This document shows positions 7,023-24,869 of a stretch of 25,830 nt of DNA, piece after piece (the first letter of the stretch is position 1; each line of letters begins with the position of its first letter). The notes below the pieces were generated by a model, which was not told the DNA's origin, searched no databases, and worked only from the letters and a program-made list of their open reading frames with translations. The stretch lies in IMG/VR virus record IMGVR_UViG_3300022927_000098, positions 1 to 25,830 of that record; one strand, given 5' to 3'. This DNA comes from a virus. A program made the translations under genes and the position numbers.

Positions 7023-7865
7023 ATGACAAACGACTTGACTACAGATATAGATAATTTATCCCCTGAAAAGTTAATGGCTCTGATAGGCCAAGAGACTGAA
7101 TCAGGTGGAGATAGTACCATACTATCAAGATTATCTATTAACTATGACTCTGAAGACGCTGACGGTAACCTTATAAAACGAGGATTATTTAAGGTTGATT
7201 CACAGCAACACGGAGTTATCTATGCTGAAAAGGTATCCTTTAGACCTTTCTTCAATACATTTCAGTATAAAAAATATGATGAAGAGAATGAAGAAAATAA
7301 TTATAAGTCAGTCATGTTTACAAGTTGGACTGATGCAAAGCCTGATACGAATGGTACAGAGGCTTGTGGTAGTATACCTAGGTCTATGCGAGATAACCTT
7401 GATATCGCTGTTAAGATAGAACAAGATAAGATTACATGTTTTAGAAATGTGTTTGGTTTAGTTACTATCAAAGGTAAAACTTCAAAAGGCGAAGATGCGT
7501 CTCTTGTAAATGAACCCGCTTTATATAGAGTAAGGGGAGTTAATTTCCTACCTATTGGCGACCAGTTAAAAAGTCTATCCAAAAGAAATAAGATTATGTT
7601 TAATACTGTCCTAGAGTTTTTTGGTACAGATAAACATACCAATGGTAGTGTAACTTATTTTGTTGCCAAGATAAAAGACTCTAATAAAGACGTTAAGTTC
7701 TCGGAAGAAGACAAGAAAGTATTTAACATGTTTAAAGAACATATTAAAACTGAGAATGATTATGTCAAGAAAGAGTATGCTGAGGCATTAAAGAGAAAAC
7801 ATAAATCATCTACTACGGCAGACGATTTAGATGATGAAATTATTTTACAGGAAATGTCAGCTTGA
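7023..7865 (+). CDS. hypothetical protein, candidate ssDNA-binding protein
   Basis: This encodes 280 residues with no family I can name. Three things suggest a single-strand DNA-binding role: it sits between polymerase and a Cas4/RecB-type nuclease, where many phages encode such a protein; the central part looks beta-rich (KVSFRPFFNTFQYKKY, YRVRGVNFLPIG); and the C-terminus is acidic (DDLDDEIILQEMSA), like the partner-binding tails of SSB and T7 gp2.5. A strong private promoter (6959-6987) and AGGAGAA ribosome site suggest high expression, also expected for an SSB. All of this is inference. Its stop overlaps the next gene's TTG start (TTGA). Confidence 0.75.
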   Translation: MTNDLTTDIDNLSPEKLMALIGQETESGGDSTILSRLSINYDSEDADGNLIKRGLFKVDSQQHGVIYAEKVSFRPFFNTFQYKKYDEENEENNYKSVMFTSWTDAKPDTNGTEACGSIPRSMRDNLDIAVKIEQDKITCFRNVFGLVTIKGKTSKGEDASLVNEPALYRVRGVNFLPIGDQLKSLSKRNKIMFNTVLEFFGTDKHTNGSVTYFVAKIKDSNKDVKFSEEDKKVFNMFKEHIKTENDYVKKEYAEALKRKHKSSTTADDLDDEIILQEMSA

Positions 7866-8776
7866 CTTTCTTAGAAGAAGTAAAATCATTTTTAGCACAG
7901 GCTCAAAACGAGCCTGTTGCTATACCCAAGGATATACTCAAAGAGTTTAAAGAGGATTGTGGTAAGGCCGTAGAAAAACAATTTACAGACACACGAGAAA
8001 AAGCGTTTAGAATTAGAATGTCTAATATTGGCAGACCTCTATGCCAATTACAAATGGAAAAAAAATACTTTGGTGATGAGTCACTAAAGAACCTAGACAA
8101 TTATAATTACAAGTTAAGAAATTTATTTGGTGACATACTAGAAGCAGTTGTAGTAATGTTATTAAAAACAGTTAAGGCAAACATCAATGGTTTACAGGGT
8201 GATGTGAAGTTAGAAACAGAATACTTCGATATAAAAGGTACATACGATATCATCATAGATGATAAGGTTTATGATATCAAGAGTGCATCACCGTTTGCCT
8301 TTGAAAAAAAGTTTGGTGAGCAAGGTGGCGGATTTGATAAGTTTTCAGAGGATGATATCTTCGGATACTTACCACAAGGTTACTTGTATTCGGAAGCCAC
8401 TTCCAAACCTTTCGGTGGTTGGATTGTTGTTAATAAATCTACTGGAGAATTATTATTAAGTAGTCCACCTGAAGAAGATGAACAGTATAGAAAAAAAGCT
8501 ATGGATACTGTTTATAAGAATATCAAAGCCTTGATGAAGGAAGAACCTTTTGAAAGATGCTTTGAACTAGTTGAAGAAATGTTCTATCAAAAGCCGACAG
8601 GTAATAAAGTTTTGGGTACTGTGTGTTCTTTCTGTGAGTATAAATATAAATGTTGGGGTGATAACATTCAATACTTGCCCCAACAACAGTCTAAAGCTAG
8701 AAACCCTAAGTTTAGTTGGTATGTAGAACTAAATAATGCTAAGGAGGCTTTAGATGAAACGAGTACCAATAGATAA
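7862..8776 (+). CDS. Cas4/RecB-type PD-(D/E)XK nuclease with Fe-S cysteines
   Basis: This encodes 304 residues of the Cas4/AddB/RecB nuclease class, DNA exonucleases used in recombination, replication or end processing. Visible motifs are GDILEAVV (90-97), GTYDI with D129, YDIKS (137-141) holding the D-x-K catalytic pair, and QGYLY (172-176), the QxxxY motif. Four cysteines match the Cas4/AddB Fe-S arrangement: C61 far upstream, then C255, C258 and C264 (C-x2-C-x5-C). The start is TTG overlapping the previous stop as TTGA, with no clear Shine-Dalgarno, so it is probably translated by coupling. No cas1 or cas2 is present, so a CRISPR role is not suggested. Confidence 0.85.
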   Translation: MTFLEEVKSFLAQAQNEPVAIPKDILKEFKEDCGKAVEKQFTDTREKAFRIRMSNIGRPLCQLQMEKKYFGDESLKNLDNYNYKLRNLFGDILEAVVVMLLKTVKANINGLQGDVKLETEYFDIKGTYDIIIDDKVYDIKSASPFAFEKKFGEQGGGFDKFSEDDIFGYLPQGYLYSEATSKPFGGWIVVNKSTGELLLSSPPEEDEQYRKKAMDTVYKNIKALMKEEPFERCFELVEEMFYQKPTGNKVLGTVCSFCEYKYKCWGDNIQYLPQQQSKARNPKFSWYVELNNAKEALDETSTNR

Positions 8777-10954: not shown

Positions 10955-11400
10955 TATTTTTTCACTAAGCTCCCACCGAAGTATAGCCCCACTATTGATG
11001 ACATAAGGTGTGTATCGAGAGGGGTAATCACTACACCTGCAAATGCTCTGTCCATTAATACTTCTTTCTTCTCTATGAGAAACAAAAAACCTGGTTTAAA
11101 TTCTGTCCATGTTAAGATGACAGGAATATCCATAATTACAGGTACTATTTTAGGCCATGCAATAACAAAGAACACAGCCGTTAAAGCTATGATTCTTCTA
11201 GTCCATTGGAATCCTTTGTTCTCATAAGTCCTTGCACTCTCAACGGCTTTCATTTGAAATTCTGCCCGTGCTAATAACATCTTTTGTTCGTCTTGTTTTG
11301 CCTTAATGCTTTGCCCCCATATAGACATTACTCCACCGAGTAAGCTAGAGCCTAGCATTGTAATCATTTCTACTGGTAATCCCCCTAACATATTATTCAT
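10954..11400 (-). CDS. three-helix membrane protein, holin-like
   Basis: This encodes 148 residues. Hydrophobic segments are at about 10-29 (MITMLGSSLLGGVMSIWG), 69-90 (IIALTAVFFVIAWPKIVPVI) and near the C-terminus (SSIVGLYFGGSLV). A charged, helical linker lies between the first two. The pattern, with a TRRIIAL start to the central helix, resembles the 3TM holins known from phages and gene-transfer agents. Placed directly upstream of the transglycosylase-like gene, it would let that enzyme reach the wall. It overlaps the preceding gene by 8 nt. Confidence 0.65.
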   Translation of the reverse strand: MNNMLGGLPVEMITMLGSSLLGGVMSIWGQSIKAKQDEQKMLLARAEFQMKAVESARTYENKGFQWTRRIIALTAVFFVIAWPKIVPVIMDIPVILTWTEFKPGFLFLIEKKEVLMDRAFAGVVITPLDTHLMSSIVGLYFGGSLVKK

Positions 11401-14400
11401 CCCCCACTATGCCGTTCTTTTCGGCTTGTTCATATATGTCCATTTCTTGTTCTGTTATTCCACCTTTAGACATCTTATCAAAGAAGTCTTGTTGCATACC
11501 ACTTAATTGTCTCTTGATAGCATCGTGTAATTCTTTAGGATTCTTAAATCCTTTTTCTTCTGCTAGGTCATACATCCATTGTTGCCACGCTTGACCTATA
11601 TCACCTTGAAATTTTATAAAAGATTCTGCCATTAGTCTTGCTATATCGCTTTTACCCATAGACTCTTTTCCCATTTGTTGTTTCATCATGTAGGTAAATG
11701 TCATATACTTAGATTCTTTTAAACTTCTCATAGCCAACCATTTTCTAGCCCACCAATCTTCCTCATCTCTTTTGTAGTTGTCTACAGAATTTTTAATATA
11801 AAAAGGATTATCTTTACCTTGATACCAAGATTCAATCCAACCATGGTAAGATGTCGGTGTAACTTTTTTCCATGCATCTCTTACTTTAGATGGGGGAATA
11901 GGTGTTATGTCTAATAAAGGTTCACCTGTTAATTGCTCACCTAGTTTGTAATTAAGATAGTGTTTAGATAGTTCTAATATGCCCGATGCTGCATTAAAAG
12001 AAAACTCTAAACTAGGAAAAGTTATAAGTTCTGTTGGGTCTGTAGTTGGTGCCTGTAAAGAATTACTCATATCAGCATTTAGTACAGTAGAAGGACCACC
12101 AAAGAAGAATACATCCGGTAATCCCCATTTAATTAATAGGTCACTTAGGGTACTCATGTTTGTTAATCCTGTAGCATTTAATCCTTTAACTAAAGCATCA
12201 ATAAACGTAACTCCCACAACACCTTTTAGTCCACCAAATATAGCTTGACTTGCAACAAAGTTTGCTAATTGTGTTGTTTGTCCTTTAGGTATGGGGATAG
12301 GTAGTTTTTGTCTACCAATAGTTAATTGTTTAAACTCTGCCTTTTGAATAGCCTCTACCATTTGTGCATACCAATTGTGAGCATAAGTTTTGAACAATCC
12401 TGCTGGTCTAGATATCGCACCTGCCATACTGTAGATAAGAGGTCTTTGAGATGCGTGATATTCCACCATTAATTTATTTGCAAGATAAGGTGCTTGTTTA
12501 ATTACAAACTCTTTACTATATCCTAATGATAACATATGTTCACCGACTGTATTAACTGCTTGTAGTCGTGTAAATCTTTCCATAAATCCTGCAGGAACAG
12601 TACCTTTAACAGTACCCCATATCTTTTTACCCAATCCTTTAGGATTAATTTTCCCTTTAGAGTAATAAGTTTCCCCAAGATATTCTTTCAACATAGCCTC
12701 TGTAATAACGCCCTGTCTAACTGCAGATTTATTTAAAGCAATGTTAAACTCTGTAGGTTTAAATGTACGCATCATCCCTAAAGCAACAGAGTAGTAAGCG
12801 TGGGCAGTAGCATCAATCATATTACTACCTTTTATTTCTGCTGACATTCCTGCTAACTTTTGAGGCAACATTTGAAGAGGTTGTATTCCCTGTAACATTA
12901 AGAATCTAGGATTCAGTGCTAACAAGAACCAAGTATTAGCCAAGTTTGCGGATTTAATATACCATTTACTTATAGCAGATTCTAGCTGAGACCCTATTGG
13001 ACTTCCTCTCATTTGTTTTACAAGTTCATTAATAGGTAATCCTGTAGCATTTTTTCTTACAGTTTCTGCTAATTGGAAATCAGTAGGGTAAATATCCGCT
13101 ATTGTTTTTTGCCCTCTAATCCCTACATTATTGGATATAGGTGTTTTATAAAATGTTGTAAAGTCATTTGCTAACTTCATTCTAAATGCACTTTGAATAC
13201 CACCATTGATATACATAGTGATTGCTTTTTCAAAATCTTGTAATCGTTTTCTAGAACTTCCATATGTTCCCAAATATCCTTCAACAACCTTTCCTTTTCT
13301 AGTCATCTTACGGATATTGAATCCTTTTTCTCTGTATATATTAGTAACTAATTTATCAATAGCATCAATTGTTTTTTGATTTGTTTTATTTCTATTAGCC
13401 AGTTGCATAATGTCTTGAAACATTTCTGCAGAATAGTCTTTAACTTCGCTTACAGTTTTACTACGGACATTAATAGTTAATTCAGGATTATCTTTCATTA
13501 AGTCGTCTTTAATTCTGTTAGCTTGTTTTATATTATCTGCACCATATACGCCAACCAAATCCCCTTTACTAGTGTTTACAAATACTTTATAGTCACCTAA
13601 GTATATTTGTGGGAAATAGTTTGGTCTTTTATTTATTTTAGAAACATTCTTTCCGCCATAGTTAATAGCAAAATCATTATATATTTTTTGTATTCCATCA
13701 AAAGATTTTTGAATATCTTTCATGGCTACAATACCTTCTTGTGATAAGCCAAATGTACCTACATATCCTGGTGTAGCTTCACCTGTTTTATTATCAAACC
13801 TATCATCTTTTAGTCTTTCTTCTTTGTTTAATTTTCTATATAGAGTATACTCATCATTTAAAGTCTTCATTGTTTCAACTACTTTTAGTTGTTCATTTGT
13901 TGATAATCTTTTCCAACGAACTAACGCACCACCTTCGGATGGTGTAAGACTTGAATAACGCATTGGATTAAATCCCGATACCTTTTCTATCTTAGATGTT
14001 TGAAACGCTTTAGGATTTTCTAAAAATAATTGAGTCATGTAATTGACTTCCATAACATACTTACTTACTAAATCCACTCCATATTTTGCTACAGGATAAT
14101 CACCTAAAAACTTTGCAGGTAATGCCTGTCTTCTTCCACCTTTTGTAAAGAGATTCATAGCAGTTTCCCATAAAGTATCTGCCTTTATAGGTGTCATCTT
14201 TTTTGTATTAGCTACAGGGATAGTTATATTTTCTTCTACTATTTCATATTTACCTTCAGCATTTTTCTTCTTTCTATTTCTTGTAATTTCTTTACCACCA
14301 ACTAATACTAACTTAGCTTCTGTTGGTGTTAGTGATGCAACCATATCAAAGTCTCTCATAAACTTTGTAGAGAATAGTCCGTGGTCTCTTATGACAGCAC

Positions 14401-15529
14401 TAATACTTTCCATATCATCTTTTAATTTTCCTTTTTGAGAATTTAAAGAGTTTATTTCTGTACTAATATTTTTTATTTGTGTATCATATTCGTTTTTCTT
14501 TTCTTCACTTTTTGCTCTTTCTTTTTTTGCAGTGATACTGTTTTGTTGTACACTTAAATCCCCAACTTTCTTTTCGTATAAATTATATTGGTCAATAATT
14601 GCCGCTAGAGATTTCTCAGTATTGCTTATAGCTTTTTCTGCTTCTCTTATATTCTTTTGTGTTGTTAAAAATTCTTTTGTTTTATTACCAAAGTTTTCAA
14701 CAACAGTATCTATTTTACTTTGTGCTGTTAATTTAGGTCCTACTAAACCTAGAACAGCAAATGTTGTAGCATTGGCAATTCTTTCTTCTGCATTTTCTGC
14801 AGGTCCTGAAGCACCCATTAAAGCCATACCTGTTAATCTTGTAGGTATGCCAAACATATTTAAGCCTTGTAATAGTTTACCACTTAGCCCACCTTCTACA
14901 CCTGCAAGTCCTACTCTTTTTGCATATTCAAAACCTGTTTCGCCTTCTTTCTTTTCAGATTCTAATAACATATTCATACCTGCAAATCCACCAACAGGAC
15001 CGCCTGTTACTACTGCGGGTGCGTATAGAGCAATTGTTCCTGGTGTTTGTGCTAATCCTTGAATAACAGATTGTGTAAATCCTGTACCTGCTTTCTTTTT
15101 AGCTTCCACCATTTGTGCTTCGTCTTTTTCTTGTTGGTCTTTATGGAAGTCATACCATGATGAAAGCATAGCTTTAAATCTGCCACCCTCTTCTTTGGGT
15201 GCATCTTTTAGTCTAGCTTGTTTTTGTTCTTCTGCTGTTAAAAATAATCCGGGGATATTTGCAAAGGCTTGTTGTGCTGTAGATTCATAGGCGTTCCATC
15301 CTGATTCGATGCCATACCTATACATGTTATACACTCGAGAACCAAGTGTAGTAGATTTATCAGTTATTGATTCACCAATACCAATAGATTCATCATCAAG
15401 TTCTTTATCTTGATTGTCTTCTTTTTGTAGAGTTTTATACTTATCCTCTATTAATTTTTGTATTTCTTCCTTTGGCATATCGTCAGGAAATTTAACGACT
15501 ATACCATCGGGCATCCTTATATTAGGCAT
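11393..15529 (-). CDS. very large virion protein, probable internal ejection protein
   Basis: This encodes 1378 residues, the largest product in the window and close in size to T7 gp16 (about 1318). The N-terminus MPNIRMPDGIVVKFPDDMP, with a following EEIQKLIEDKY helix, is a short module often found at the start of large phage internal proteins. Glycine/alanine-rich hydrophobic stretches lie at about 155-185 and 205-265, and a long coiled coil spans about 285-378. The rest is mixed, with membrane-like segments in the last third. I see no transglycosylase or protease motif. Position upstream of the lysis genes and downstream of unknown virion genes fits an internal core or DNA-ejection protein. 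Ribosome site GGAGATACA. Confidence 0.75.
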   Translation of the reverse strand: MPNIRMPDGIVVKFPDDMPKEEIQKLIEDKYKTLQKEDNQDKELDDESIGIGESITDKSTTLGSRVYNMYRYGIESGWNAYESTAQQAFANIPGLFLTAEEQKQARLKDAPKEEGGRFKAMLSSWYDFHKDQQEKDEAQMVEAKKKAGTGFTQSVIQGLAQTPGTIALYAPAVVTGGPVGGFAGMNMLLESEKKEGETGFEYAKRVGLAGVEGGLSGKLLQGLNMFGIPTRLTGMALMGASGPAENAEERIANATTFAVLGLVGPKLTAQSKIDTVVENFGNKTKEFLTTQKNIREAEKAISNTEKSLAAIIDQYNLYEKKVGDLSVQQNSITAKKERAKSEEKKNEYDTQIKNISTEINSLNSQKGKLKDDMESISAVIRDHGLFSTKFMRDFDMVASLTPTEAKLVLVGGKEITRNRKKKNAEGKYEIVEENITIPVANTKKMTPIKADTLWETAMNLFTKGGRRQALPAKFLGDYPVAKYGVDLVSKYVMEVNYMTQLFLENPKAFQTSKIEKVSGFNPMRYSSLTPSEGGALVRWKRLSTNEQLKVVETMKTLNDEYTLYRKLNKEERLKDDRFDNKTGEATPGYVGTFGLSQEGIVAMKDIQKSFDGIQKIYNDFAINYGGKNVSKINKRPNYFPQIYLGDYKVFVNTSKGDLVGVYGADNIKQANRIKDDLMKDNPELTINVRSKTVSEVKDYSAEMFQDIMQLANRNKTNQKTIDAIDKLVTNIYREKGFNIRKMTRKGKVVEGYLGTYGSSRKRLQDFEKAITMYINGGIQSAFRMKLANDFTTFYKTPISNNVGIRGQKTIADIYPTDFQLAETVRKNATGLPINELVKQMRGSPIGSQLESAISKWYIKSANLANTWFLLALNPRFLMLQGIQPLQMLPQKLAGMSAEIKGSNMIDATAHAYYSVALGMMRTFKPTEFNIALNKSAVRQGVITEAMLKEYLGETYYSKGKINPKGLGKKIWGTVKGTVPAGFMERFTRLQAVNTVGEHMLSLGYSKEFVIKQAPYLANKLMVEYHASQRPLIYSMAGAISRPAGLFKTYAHNWYAQMVEAIQKAEFKQLTIGRQKLPIPIPKGQTTQLANFVASQAIFGGLKGVVGVTFIDALVKGLNATGLTNMSTLSDLLIKWGLPDVFFFGGPSTVLNADMSNSLQAPTTDPTELITFPSLEFSFNAASGILELSKHYLNYKLGEQLTGEPLLDITPIPPSKVRDAWKKVTPTSYHGWIESWYQGKDNPFYIKNSVDNYKRDEEDWWARKWLAMRSLKESKYMTFTYMMKQQMGKESMGKSDIARLMAESFIKFQGDIGQAWQQWMYDLAEEKGFKNPKELHDAIKRQLSGMQQDFFDKMSKGGITEQEMDIYEQAEKNGIVGDE

Positions 15530-21488: not shown

Positions 21489-21818
21489 TTATGATTTTGG
21501 ATTATCAGCTTTAATCTGTGCTACTTTAGTTTGCCATGCATCTAAACCATTCTCTGTTATGTACTCAATCTGTTCACCGATTGAGCCATAAAGAGATGTT
21601 CTAGTAGCCACTACTTGAGCATTAGCTTCAGCAGTATTAGCAGCAGATTCAACAGCAGATAAGTCGCTATCAGACGGCTTAGATACACCTGAGATATTCC
21701 ACTCTTTAATGTATGCACCTTGACCATCATCTTGTAAAAGAACATCAGTAGTAAAGTCCACCTCGTTTACTGAGTTAGCCTTTAGATACTCTTTTATTTT
21801 TGTACTTAGTTGTGCCAT
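21489..21818 (-). CDS. XkdW-like / tail-fibre-assembly-type protein
   Basis: This encodes 109 residues. The pattern KPSDSDLSAVESAANTAEAN, then TRTSLYGSIGEQIEYI and NGLDAWQTKVAQIKADNP is the one seen in XkdW-like phage proteins, which are small tail-region proteins of uncertain, probably chaperone-like, role. The N-terminal part (MAQLSTKIKEYLKANS) is helical. AAAGGAG precedes the ATG. It lies directly after a second fibre-assembly-type gene, so both probably help fold or attach the fibres encoded upstream. Confidence 0.75.
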   Translation of the reverse strand: MAQLSTKIKEYLKANSVNEVDFTTDVLLQDDGQGAYIKEWNISGVSKPSDSDLSAVESAANTAEANAQVVATRTSLYGSIGEQIEYITENGLDAWQTKVAQIKADNPKS

Positions 21819-21830
21819 TTGTTTTCTCCT

Positions 21831-22115
21831 TTAATTAGGTTTTGTTGGGAATACGACTGCTTCGACTTGTTCAACAGTAGTTAATCCATTGGTTATATCT
21901 CTCAGTTGAGTTCTATAAGTTTCCCAAGCAGTCTTATCTGCAATAGGACTGTCAGGTAAAACTACCCAATCTGTTTCTGCTAGTAGTTGATTTCTTTTTG
22001 CTCTTAAAATTTGCATATTAAAATTATAAGAATATTCTGCTGTATAAGTTGAATTTATTTCTGCAATTTCTGCATCTGTTAAATTTATTTCTATTCCATT
22101 TACATATTTAATCAT
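21831..22115 (-). CDS. tail-fibre assembly chaperone-like protein
   Basis: This encodes 94 residues. The motif RAKRNQLLAETDWVVLPDSP, followed by TAWETYRTQLRDITNGL, is the hallmark of phage tail assembly chaperone-type proteins (Phage_tail_APC / Tfa-like C-terminal region). These proteins usually lie just downstream of a fibre gene and aid its folding, exactly the arrangement here with four fibre genes upstream. GGAG precedes the ATG, which overlaps the stop of the preceding gene. Confidence 0.8.
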   Translation of the reverse strand: MIKYVNGIEINLTDAEIAEINSTYTAEYSYNFNMQILRAKRNQLLAETDWVVLPDSPIADKTAWETYRTQLRDITNGLTTVEQVEAVVFPTKPN

Positions 22116-22820: not shown

Positions 22821-23369
22821 TTATGCTCCTATTAATTTATATCCACCAAGAAATGTTTGACCTTCTTGTGCTTTCATTCCTGTATTTGCAGAAGCATCTG
22901 CTAAAAGAACATACGCTTCTATCGTATCTCCTACAGACAAATCCATTGTTATTCCAAGATAAACAGGGAAAAATATCAACTGATTATTTGCTGCTGATGA
23001 GTATTTTCCTTCTTTAAAAGAACTTGAATTTTTAAATATATTTAATTGTATTGTTTCACCATCGTTTCCACAGTCACTAAAGTTTGCAAATACTCCTGTA
23101 TAAATAAAATATTTACCAGCTTTACCACTAGGAACTGTAAAAGTAGTTCCGTCAAAAGCACTATCTGTATCTATTTCTTGTGCTGTCATACCAGTCAATT
23201 TAGTTTGAGTGTTTCTTGAAACAACTTGGCTTGATGCTAATTGACCATAAAAAGCTGGAGTATTCTGTAATCCACTTGCACTTGTTGTTACATTACCACT
23301 ACCATCAGATGAGAATAGAGCATTTCCGTTTGCGTCTTGAAATGTATTTACTTTTATTATGCTACTCAT
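22821..23369 (-). CDS. C1q-like tail fibre protein, cassette 3
   Basis: This encodes 182 residues. The N-terminal tag MSSIIKVNTFQDANGNALFS, with SSDGSGNVT, probably attaches or trimerises the fibre. From NTPAF onward is a C1q/TNF-type jelly roll: TKLTGMTAQEIDTDSAFDGT, FTVPSGKAGKYFIYTGV and the terminal FLGGYKLIGA, the last strand of that fold. It is paralogous to the genes at 23371 and 23869. The last codons (ATA GGA GCA TAA) also provide the Shine-Dalgarno for the next gene. It would bind host receptors as trimers. Confidence 0.8.
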   Translation of the reverse strand: MSSIIKVNTFQDANGNALFSSDGSGNVTTSASGLQNTPAFYGQLASSQVVSRNTQTKLTGMTAQEIDTDSAFDGTTFTVPSGKAGKYFIYTGVFANFSDCGNDGETIQLNIFKNSSSFKEGKYSSAANNQLIFFPVYLGITMDLSVGDTIEAYVLLADASANTGMKAQEGQTFLGGYKLIGA

Positions 23370-23370
23370 T

Positions 23371-23868
23371 TTATGCTCCTATAATTTTGTATCCACCCAT
23401 AAATGTAAAACCATATCCAGCAGCTATAGTTCCACTACTCGCTAGATAACATCTTAAATCATAATAATCAGTTCCGTTTGGTTCTATGATTCCACTAATA
23501 TTTTGAATACCAGCATTCGATGCATCAATTTGAGCCATTACTTGTTCTGTTGTTCCATTTTTGTAAATTGCAACATACATATAAGACATACCTGTAGATA
23601 ATCTAACTTGACCATTTATAACATATCTACCTGATGGAGGTGTCCATCTATAAGTAGAAGTATCAAAATAACTACCAATATCAAAATCTTCTGTAGCTAA
23701 AGAAAGAACAGTCCATGTTGAGCCACTTACTGATTGATTACTAGATAACCTTGCTCTAAATGCTGGAGTATTAGCCGCAAATGATTGTGTTAAATTACCA
23801 GCACCATCACTAGAGATAATAGTATTGCCACCCTTATCCTGTATTGTATTAACTTTTAATATGCTCAT
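23371..23868 (-). CDS. C1q-like tail fibre protein, cassette 2
   Basis: This encodes 165 residues, the shortest of the three paralogues. The N-terminal tag MSILKVNTIQDKGGNTIISS, with DGAGNLT, is closely like that of the 22821 product. The domain then starts at NTPAFRARLSSNQSVSGSTW, passes WTPPSGRYVINGQVRLS and ends FMGGYKIIGA. The middle strands and loops differ strongly from the paralogues while the termini are conserved, as expected of receptor-binding tips that vary. Ribosome site AGGAG lies within the preceding gene's final codons. Confidence 0.8.
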   Translation of the reverse strand: MSILKVNTIQDKGGNTIISSDGAGNLTQSFAANTPAFRARLSSNQSVSGSTWTVLSLATEDFDIGSYFDTSTYRWTPPSGRYVINGQVRLSTGMSYMYVAIYKNGTTEQVMAQIDASNAGIQNISGIIEPNGTDYYDLRCYLASSGTIAAGYGFTFMGGYKIIGA

Positions 23869-24417
23869 CTATGCTCCTATTAATTTAAATCCTGAAAGAA
23901 ATGTTTTTGAATTAGTTGTTGTGGTATTAGTTCCTAAATCATGTGAACCATAAAGTTTAACTGTATCGCCAGCAGATAAAGTAAGAATTACAGAACCAAA
24001 GCTATGTCCTGGAAAACCATTTGTAGGAAAAGATGTTTGTTGGCTTCTATATGAATAGTTATTTATAGAGCCATTTATATATAATGTAGATTCAGTCCAA
24101 TCGTGGTCATTCATATTTTCAAAAACTATTTGCCAAGTGAATAAATATTTACCACCTTTGCCTGTTGGAACAGTGAATGTATTACTAGAAAAAGCACTAT
24201 CTGTGTCATAGGAAACAGAGTTTAAAGTTATTTGTGTCCAAGTAGAATTACCTATTGTTGTTTGTGAAGAAGCTGTAGCAAAAAAACTAGGAGTATTAAC
24301 TCCACCAAATCCACTCTGTGTTGCACCACTGCCTAGTGTTACTGTATCTCCACTACCACCAATCGTAATAGTTGTTCCAGATTGAGGGTTAATTGTATTT
24401 ACTTCTAATGTACTCAT
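23869..24417 (-). CDS. C1q-like tail fibre protein, cassette 1
   Basis: This encodes 182 residues. The N-terminal tag MSTLEVNTINPQSGTTITIG is a diverged version of the paralogues' tag, with a Gly/Ser/Thr-rich linker. The jelly-roll part has NTPSFFATASSQTTIGNSTW, SYDTDSAFSSNTFTVPTGKG and ends FLSGFKLIGA. The ATGA overlap with the preceding gene's stop and a distant AGGGAG suggest coupled translation rather than the AGGAG-in-codons device used at the next three junctions. Its final codons do carry AGGAG for the 23868 start. Confidence 0.8.
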   Translation of the reverse strand: MSTLEVNTINPQSGTTITIGGSGDTVTLGSGATQSGFGGVNTPSFFATASSQTTIGNSTWTQITLNSVSYDTDSAFSSNTFTVPTGKGGKYLFTWQIVFENMNDHDWTESTLYINGSINNYSYRSQQTSFPTNGFPGHSFGSVILTLSAGDTVKLYGSHDLGTNTTTTNSKTFLSGFKLIGA

Positions 24418-24869
24418 GCGATTACGAATGTACTCCCTGATGCAATAGTCAATGTGCCTGATACTGTAATCGGTCCTGCGACTATAGCGTTTTTATTTGA
24501 TGTTACTGTAATGTCTGTAAAGGTCTGATTGTTGACGGAATAATATGTTGAACCTAAAGAGGAGGCTGTAACGGATGCATCACTGGGTGTACCAATATCA
24601 TAGACATTCCCTAAAACCACACCACTAAATGTATCACTGGATAATGGAGCGGATGTGAATGTTATTGTGCTACCGCTGATGGTGTATGCGTCATTCGGAT
24701 ACTGAACAACCCCTGAAATACTAATAATACAATTCTGTTCATTCTCAGGTAAAACATTGACTGCACCTGATTGTAAGGTGAAGGATGTTAATGAACCATT
24801 AAAGCTACCTGAGATATCATCCAAGAGGATGAATCTACCTTGTGTTGGACTTTTGCCTATGTATGCCAT
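24414..24869 (-). CDS. tail fibre connector-type protein
   Basis: This encodes 151 residues. MAYIGKSPTQGRFILLDDIS, then SFTLQSGAVNVLPENEQNCI, ISISGVVQYPNDAYTISGST and DTFSGVVLG form a pattern I recall as common at the base of tail fibres in marine phages. The C-terminal 40 residues are Thr/Ser/Val repeats (VAGPITVSGTLTIASGSTFV) like a beta-helix tip. It precedes the C1q-like cassettes and may be the part that attaches them to the tail. Its stop overlaps the next ATG (ATGA). Confidence 0.75.
   Translation of the reverse strand: MAYIGKSPTQGRFILLDDISGSFNGSLTSFTLQSGAVNVLPENEQNCIISISGVVQYPNDAYTISGSTITFTSAPLSSDTFSGVVLGNVYDIGTPSDASVTASSLGSTYYSVNNQTFTDITVTSNKNAIVAGPITVSGTLTIASGSTFVIA

Follow-up and report, generated by a model that had tools for sequence, protein, structure and literature searches.

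Slot-specific tags and exchangeable C1q-like heads in a candidate four-fibre array of a probable Pelagibacter podovirus

Pelagiphages have been reported among the most abundant marine viruses, and, to our knowledge, the determinants of their host range are largely unknown. A run of small tandem fibre genes in IMG/VR virus record IMGVR_UViG_3300022927_000098 (linear, 25,830 bases, analysed over its whole length and hereafter called the window) raises the question of what is exchanged at such a locus, whole genes or parts of genes, and what stays in place. The window's DNA polymerase shares 52% identity with that of Pelagibacter phage HTVC033P and 41% with that of HMO-2011, and a DnaB-type helicase and a primase are also encoded; on these grounds, the window is from an HMO-2011-type podovirus, with Pelagibacter, judging from the nearest relatives, as the probable host. 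The replication block also includes a Cas4-domain exonuclease (phrog_1990, window 7862-8776), a possible recombination enzyme, and positions 11393-15529 encode a 1378-aa probable internal virion protein that falls into no PHROG family and for which tblastn found no relative in phage records. The record terminates just upstream of the array.

The initial annotation described three tandem, paralogous fibre genes, and their open reading frames, minus-strand orientation and coordinates all proved correct: slot 1 (23869..24417, 182 aa, tag MSTLEVNTINPQSG... plus a C1q/TNF-like head), slot 2 (23371..23868, 165 aa, tag MSILKVNTIQDKGGN... plus a jelly-roll-type head; phrog_15750, E 3e-8) and slot 3 (22821..23369, 182 aa, tag MSSIIKVNTFQDANGN... 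plus a C1q/TNF-like head), with gaps to the next start of 0, 1 and 1 nt. Paralogy was borne out by local alignments, which scored z = 14, 29 and 27 relative to shuffled sequences, and a repeat finder picks up matching blocks in slots 1-3. The array does not end with these three genes, however: a fourth tagged gene follows at 22819-22115 (slot 4, minus strand, tag MAITRIITPSITDDAVDNTKLDLASNYAFTGTV), the head of which is of a different family (phrog_14820, E 3e-23) and unrelated to those of slots 1-3 (z about 0), and the 36-aa tag of which is 97% identical to the tag of a C1q-headed gene in L121 and L295 (L-numbers are the labels of relatives' sequences compared with the window). The array is preceded by a 151-aa tail-fibre family gene, termed the anchor (MAYIGKSP...VIA; 24414..24869, minus strand; phrog_18673 tail fiber protein, E 2e-44; 79-83% amino acid identity in relatives). 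It is followed on the same strand by a phage tail assembly chaperone gene (21831..22115; Pfam Phage_tail_APC, E 7e-14; PHROG tail fiber assembly) and then by an XkdW-like gene (21489..21818; Pfam XkdW, E 8e-10; phrog_9114), which is the last gene of the array in many relatives and has its own intergenic Shine-Dalgarno sequence (SD; AAAGGAG).

Conserved tags had been proposed for both ends of the three genes. At the 3' ends, this held: each gene closes on ATA GGA GCA TAR and so supplies the SD of the next gene (23869..23880, with TAG, for slot 2; 23371..23382 for slot 3; 22821..22832 for slot 4; all minus strand). The sequence ATAGGAGCATAR has exactly three copies in the whole window, all at these ends, against a chance expectation of 0.31 matches with one mismatch allowed, and three were reached in 0 of 100 shuffles, ruling out a junction arising by chance. 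A common end was thus confirmed, although not at the suggested length of 24 bp (12 bp are exact, and two of the ends agree at 22/24). At the N-termini, by contrast, there is no single common tag; the tags are similar across slots, but slot-specific. Slot 4 ends in ...TAT GGA GTT AAA TAA, and the GGAG within it serves the chaperone gene.

The designation of the heads as C1q-like stood by fold and not by Pfam membership, given that Pfam scores fell below the curated cut-offs (slot 3, TNF, 21.0 bits versus 23; slot 1, C1q, 20.8 versus 23.7, E 5e-4), with one relative, L294, barely over that for TNF (23.4 versus 23). A PDB profile search returned C1q chains at E 0.002-0.008, and an AlphaFold2 model of slot 3 (pLDDT 83.6), built with window and viral-contig sequences alone, matched C1QL3 in Foldseek (E 2e-8, TM 0.77 by target). 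Further matches were to other C1q heads, to TNF ligands, to a spike domain of Staphylococcus phage 812 and to numerous viral proteins annotated as C1q. The slot 3 head is accordingly modelled as a gC1q-type jelly-roll of the C1q/TNF superfamily. A second head type found among relatives, named MEVLA after its C-terminus, gave a model (pLDDT 84.0) resembling the TNF-like lectins PLTL and BC2L-C, and these predicted C1q/TNF and lectin folds together suggest that the heads may bind glycans. Tag regions were of low confidence in both models (pLDDT 54-71 for slot 3). C1q-superfamily heads are typically trimers, and the four fibre proteins are probably trimeric, the slot 3 model being that of a single chain.

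To compare the locus among phages, relatives were gathered from viral contigs by anchor gene, slot proteins, junction DNA pattern and slot alignments, and open reading frames were classed on their first residues and then chained, yielding 67 non-redundant arrays. Between the window and L005, L007 and L011 (for slot 3 also L121 and L304), tags are 87-100% identical in amino acids and heads 33-38%; the diverged middles noted previously thus hold, as heads exchanged via recombination. L305 and L309 have 95-100% identical heads in slots 1, 2 and 4 and a matching right flank, but their slot 3 heads share only 42% identity, on tag DNA that is 97% identical; here, identity drops at about +110 nt and recovers in the last ~24 nt, so that one breakpoint falls at the tag/head border and the other in the final codons. 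Elsewhere, a single head is common to a pair of arrays (slot 1 alone in L310 and L318; slot 2 alone in L168 and L170). The recombining unit is therefore the head with its own 3' end, and not the whole cassette as first proposed, the tags staying in their slots; likewise, the junction is a recombination site on one side only, the other breakpoint being the tag/head border. Replacement in blocks, as in L305 and L309, speaks against pointwise hypervariation of the heads, as by a diversity-generating retroelement, and no reverse transcriptase was seen among the annotated open reading frames in the subset scanned of this partial genome. As judged from these alignments, a replacement affects a single slot, and heads are exchanged both inside a slot and from one slot to another, as well as from phage to phage. 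Two contig ends of IMGVR_UViG_3300021962_000286 (L006 and L011) both lie inside the array and differ in their heads (one MEVLA-type, the other C1q-type), as if the assembly had broken at head variants.

We consider it likely, with a probability of roughly three in four, that the locus encodes a slot-addressed set of four small fibres, each probably a trimer, in a probable Pelagibacter podovirus, with tags that are fixed to their slots and exchangeable heads that carry the SD of the next gene. Each tag would dock its fibre to a set position, either on the tail or on a neighbouring fibre, and the heads would bind host surface glycans or proteins. Exchange would proceed by homologous recombination, with the near-identical DNA of the tag as the upstream arm and, on the downstream side, the conserved 3' end and the next tag, and a new head would drop in with the assembly and translation of the following genes unbroken. 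The genes have the conserved N-terminus and exchangeable C-terminus of modular phage receptor-binding proteins, as read from sequence, and the array may act in host range.

The DNA around the slot-1 start bears on how such exchange might occur. Identity between the window and its relatives rises to ~97-100% about 95 nt before this start, lasts for ~200 nt and falls to about 20-65% in the head, delimiting an island (24299..24509, minus strand; sliding identity versus L005, L007 and L011) that comprises ~95 nt at the 3' end of the anchor, the slot-1 start and the slot-1 tag and is the probable upstream recombination arm; the homology usable for exchange is thus longer (about 200 nt) than the junction. 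Third-codon-position identity at conserved residues was 0.82 in tags versus 0.59 in the anchor gene (48 array pairs, which are non-independent; Wilcoxon p 2e-8). Because near-identity includes synonymous sites and the anchor's 3' end, the tags could be mainly recombination or translation-initiation sequences, slot-specific without any docking function. We regard this as unlikely, as the proteins retain their slot-specific tag character even in phages with differing tag sequences (slot-1 variants include MSTLEV, MSKIEV, MSKLET and MATLFV), and no comparable identity is seen over the first ~90 nt of the anchor itself. Tag order could persist simply because tag DNA itself guides recombination.

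Slot-bound tags with exchangeable heads account better for slot number and order than the mobility of entire cassettes. The tag order 1-2-3-4 was kept in 64 of the 64 simple arrays, with no violations, and the complete set was present in 27 of the 67 arrays, many contigs being fragments in which slots missing at the ends are uninformative. As tag classes were defined after inspection of some arrays and the arrays are mutually related, the corresponding log10 figure of −54.6 is not a fair probability, and weight is placed instead on the lack of exceptions. The initial annotation had envisaged self-contained units, tag and head together, being swapped or duplicated by recombination at the 24-bp junction, a reading that extends to their deletion and shuffling, and had called for a comparison of cassette number and order among relatives. 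Consistent with such mobility, slot 3 occurs twice in L313, with tag DNA identical at 86 of 87 positions and two different heads, and two fibre arrays are present in L095/L191, L170 and L273 (tags of the second array, MATLFVDKIDPQSG / MGTIKTTNIEPIAD / MASIIKANQLQDFG). However, L313 holds the sole doubled slot, the slot set is otherwise nearly constant, and moving whole cassettes would not place the same head on different tags or different head families on the same tag; shuffling was rejected on the unbroken order, and whole-cassette mobility in general appears quite improbable. Cassette number is thus nearly fixed, but divergence along the genes is far from uniform, given the contrast between tags and heads. 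In L027, L034-L037, L048 and L066, an anchor-type N-terminus (MAYIGKSP) is fused straight onto a C1q-like head in a protein of ~325-335 aa. A search of genome contigs with slot 3 gave no relatives and so turned up neither a cellular nor a prophage copy.

Heads also cross between slots. A ~97% identical head sits on the slot-1 tag in L095 and on the slot-2 tag in L357, the tags being unrelated, and one tag class occurs with different head families. In a tree of 115 C1q-type heads, made by a quick method and with most branches weak, there was hardly any grouping by slot (54 changes versus a shuffled mean of 59.7, with values as low in 13 of 200 shuffles). Such traffic is difficult to reconcile with three paralogous chains that must co-vary as a hetero-trimer, in the manner of vertebrate C1q A, B and C, an arrangement that the trimeric habit of the superfamily, the three adjacent C1q-like genes of the window and the triplets in L096 and both L170 arrays would otherwise favour; as slots are replaced independently, heads move across them and a slot may hold a head family unlike its neighbours', we rejected this explanation as very unlikely. 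Least probable of all is plain vertical descent of paralogues from an old duplication, with arms-race point mutation in the heads and strong protein constraint on the tags: tags are indeed conserved in protein between distant phages too, and receptor-binding domains often evolve fast, but sharp-edged block replacement between arrays otherwise ~97% identical refutes it as the sole process, and it is also opposed by nearly identical heads on different tags and by tags whose synonymous sites resemble each other more than the neighbouring gene would lead one to expect.

The 3' ends of 178 cassettes were surveyed, with head families assigned from patterns in the C-terminal sequence, a procedure that misfiles a few. 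With the next gene abutting, an SD-like core was located within the upstream coding sequence in 110 of 118 cases and was intergenic in none; where the gap exceeded 3 nt, it was intergenic in 40 of 51. C1q heads had Gly among their last two codons in 77 of 78 abutting versus 7 of 32 other cases (p 2e-17, a value inflated, as are the others of this survey, by phylogenetic non-independence, which lowers the effective number), and the terminal Gly codon was GGA in 83 of 84, compared with 34% in window genes. MEVLA heads end in GAG-GTA if abutting (GAG in 15 of 16) and otherwise in GAA with ATA, ATT or ATC (GAA in 9 of 10; p 3e-5), and RLGD heads, in small numbers, mostly in TTA GGA GAT if abutting, most of the non-abutting ones having GGT or lacking Gly. 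Slot is confounded with context in these comparisons, most gapped cases being slot 4, and an independent-pairs test of the Gly tail, in which nearly all pairs agreed, had only three well-supported usable pairs, too few for significance. In the slot 3 model, the last strand stops at residue 178, leaving IGA (180-182) outside the fold. Across C1q and MEVLA heads, and in fewer cases RLGD heads, whether the terminal codons hold an SD depends, on these sequence counts, on what lies downstream, and the 3' end that doubles as the next gene's ribosome-binding site is apparently under selection.

By inspection only, HMO-2011 (L361:11-6363, GU557055) has ~14 small tail genes, several of which end in GDLA with GGAGAC right before the next ATG, and GDLA may represent a fourth peptide solution for carrying the next gene's SD. 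A tentative extension, to which we would give slightly less than even odds, is that unrelated head families form a shared pool among marine phages, each having independently gained a C-terminal expression-signal peptide (IGA, MEVLA, RLGD or GDLA); compatibility with an array would then be set by the last codons, and the peptide would be there for RNA and not protein reasons. In slots 1-3, a short (~97-aa) open reading frame follows RLGD heads in 9 of 13 cases, whereas any short open reading frame follows C1q heads in 5 of 98 (p 2e-7). Members of this family (W.GW...LGL...EI.ALIG; L008:1567-1857, L168:2133-2432 and L347:3289-3576) matched no Pfam or PHROG entry among the families tried, and a comparable open reading frame after a MEVLA-type head (L264:5352-5621) matches phrog_9114. 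By its position, and given the Phage_tail_APC gene behind slot 4 of the window, the ~97-aa product is a putative chaperone.

If the heads bind hosts, the array would be a concrete and testable unit of host-range change, in which a pool of heads serves four fixed sites and could be read directly from metagenomes via the slot tag. It also offers an instance of protein C-termini apparently moulded by the start signal that the following gene requires. A control is inherent in it: members of one head family are without the signal where the following gene supplies its own.

Arrangements of this kind are already known. In the Ackermannviridae, up to four tailspikes occur, their N-termini conserved and their heads open to exchange (PMC11414711); for the branched tailspike complex (TSP1-4) of phages such as CBA120 and S117, that account describes a cluster of as many as four receptor-binding genes whose N-terminal structural parts are conserved and whose C-terminal receptor-binding parts vary, and homologous recombination at conserved 5' ends. 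The window array has the same clustering, with up to four genes and member-specific N-termini, and a presumed role in receptor binding; it may work like the Ackermannviridae tailspike complex, a likeness from which membership of that group does not follow. The Ackermannviridae tailspikes are joined by gp10-like XD domains, in contrast to the ~165-235-aa podovirus proteins with short tags in the window, and no gp10-like/XD family (as in TSP2 and TSP4) was among the Pfam and PHROG matches of the anchor and slots 1-4, although remote homology is possible; a head-encoded SD is not mentioned in the part of the account available (PMC11414711).

The pelagiphage metaviromic islands of Mizuno et al. 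2014 (PMC3909814) contain C1q-like putative receptor-binding proteins adjoining the tail fibre; the N-terminus recruits reads and the C1q domain under-recruits, according to the available part of that study. The words 'tandem' and 'recombination' are absent from its text, no tandem array is described, and slot-specific tags, between-slot head exchange and a dual-use 3' end do not appear in that part. In Skadi and other phages of the HTVC010P type, a lectin-like protein lies in a hypervariable region (PMC10504331). Puniceispirillum phage HMO-2011 likewise has successive small genes annotated as 'putative tail fiber', among them one for a C1q protein, with the GDLA ends noted above, but these have been annotated gene by gene only and differ in head families and tags; the literature searched contained no account of HMO-2011 together with C1q. 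A further counterpart is Pelagibacter phage HTVC115P (MN698247), which has slot 1-4 tags in the same order, C1q-like heads and the ATAGGAGCATAA junction, although its array genes are annotated as hypothetical proteins; as HTVC115P is an isolate on HTCC7211, the array is testable. What the window adds to these systems is the combination, within a compact podovirus, of short slot tags, heads that cross slots and SDs carried by the heads themselves.
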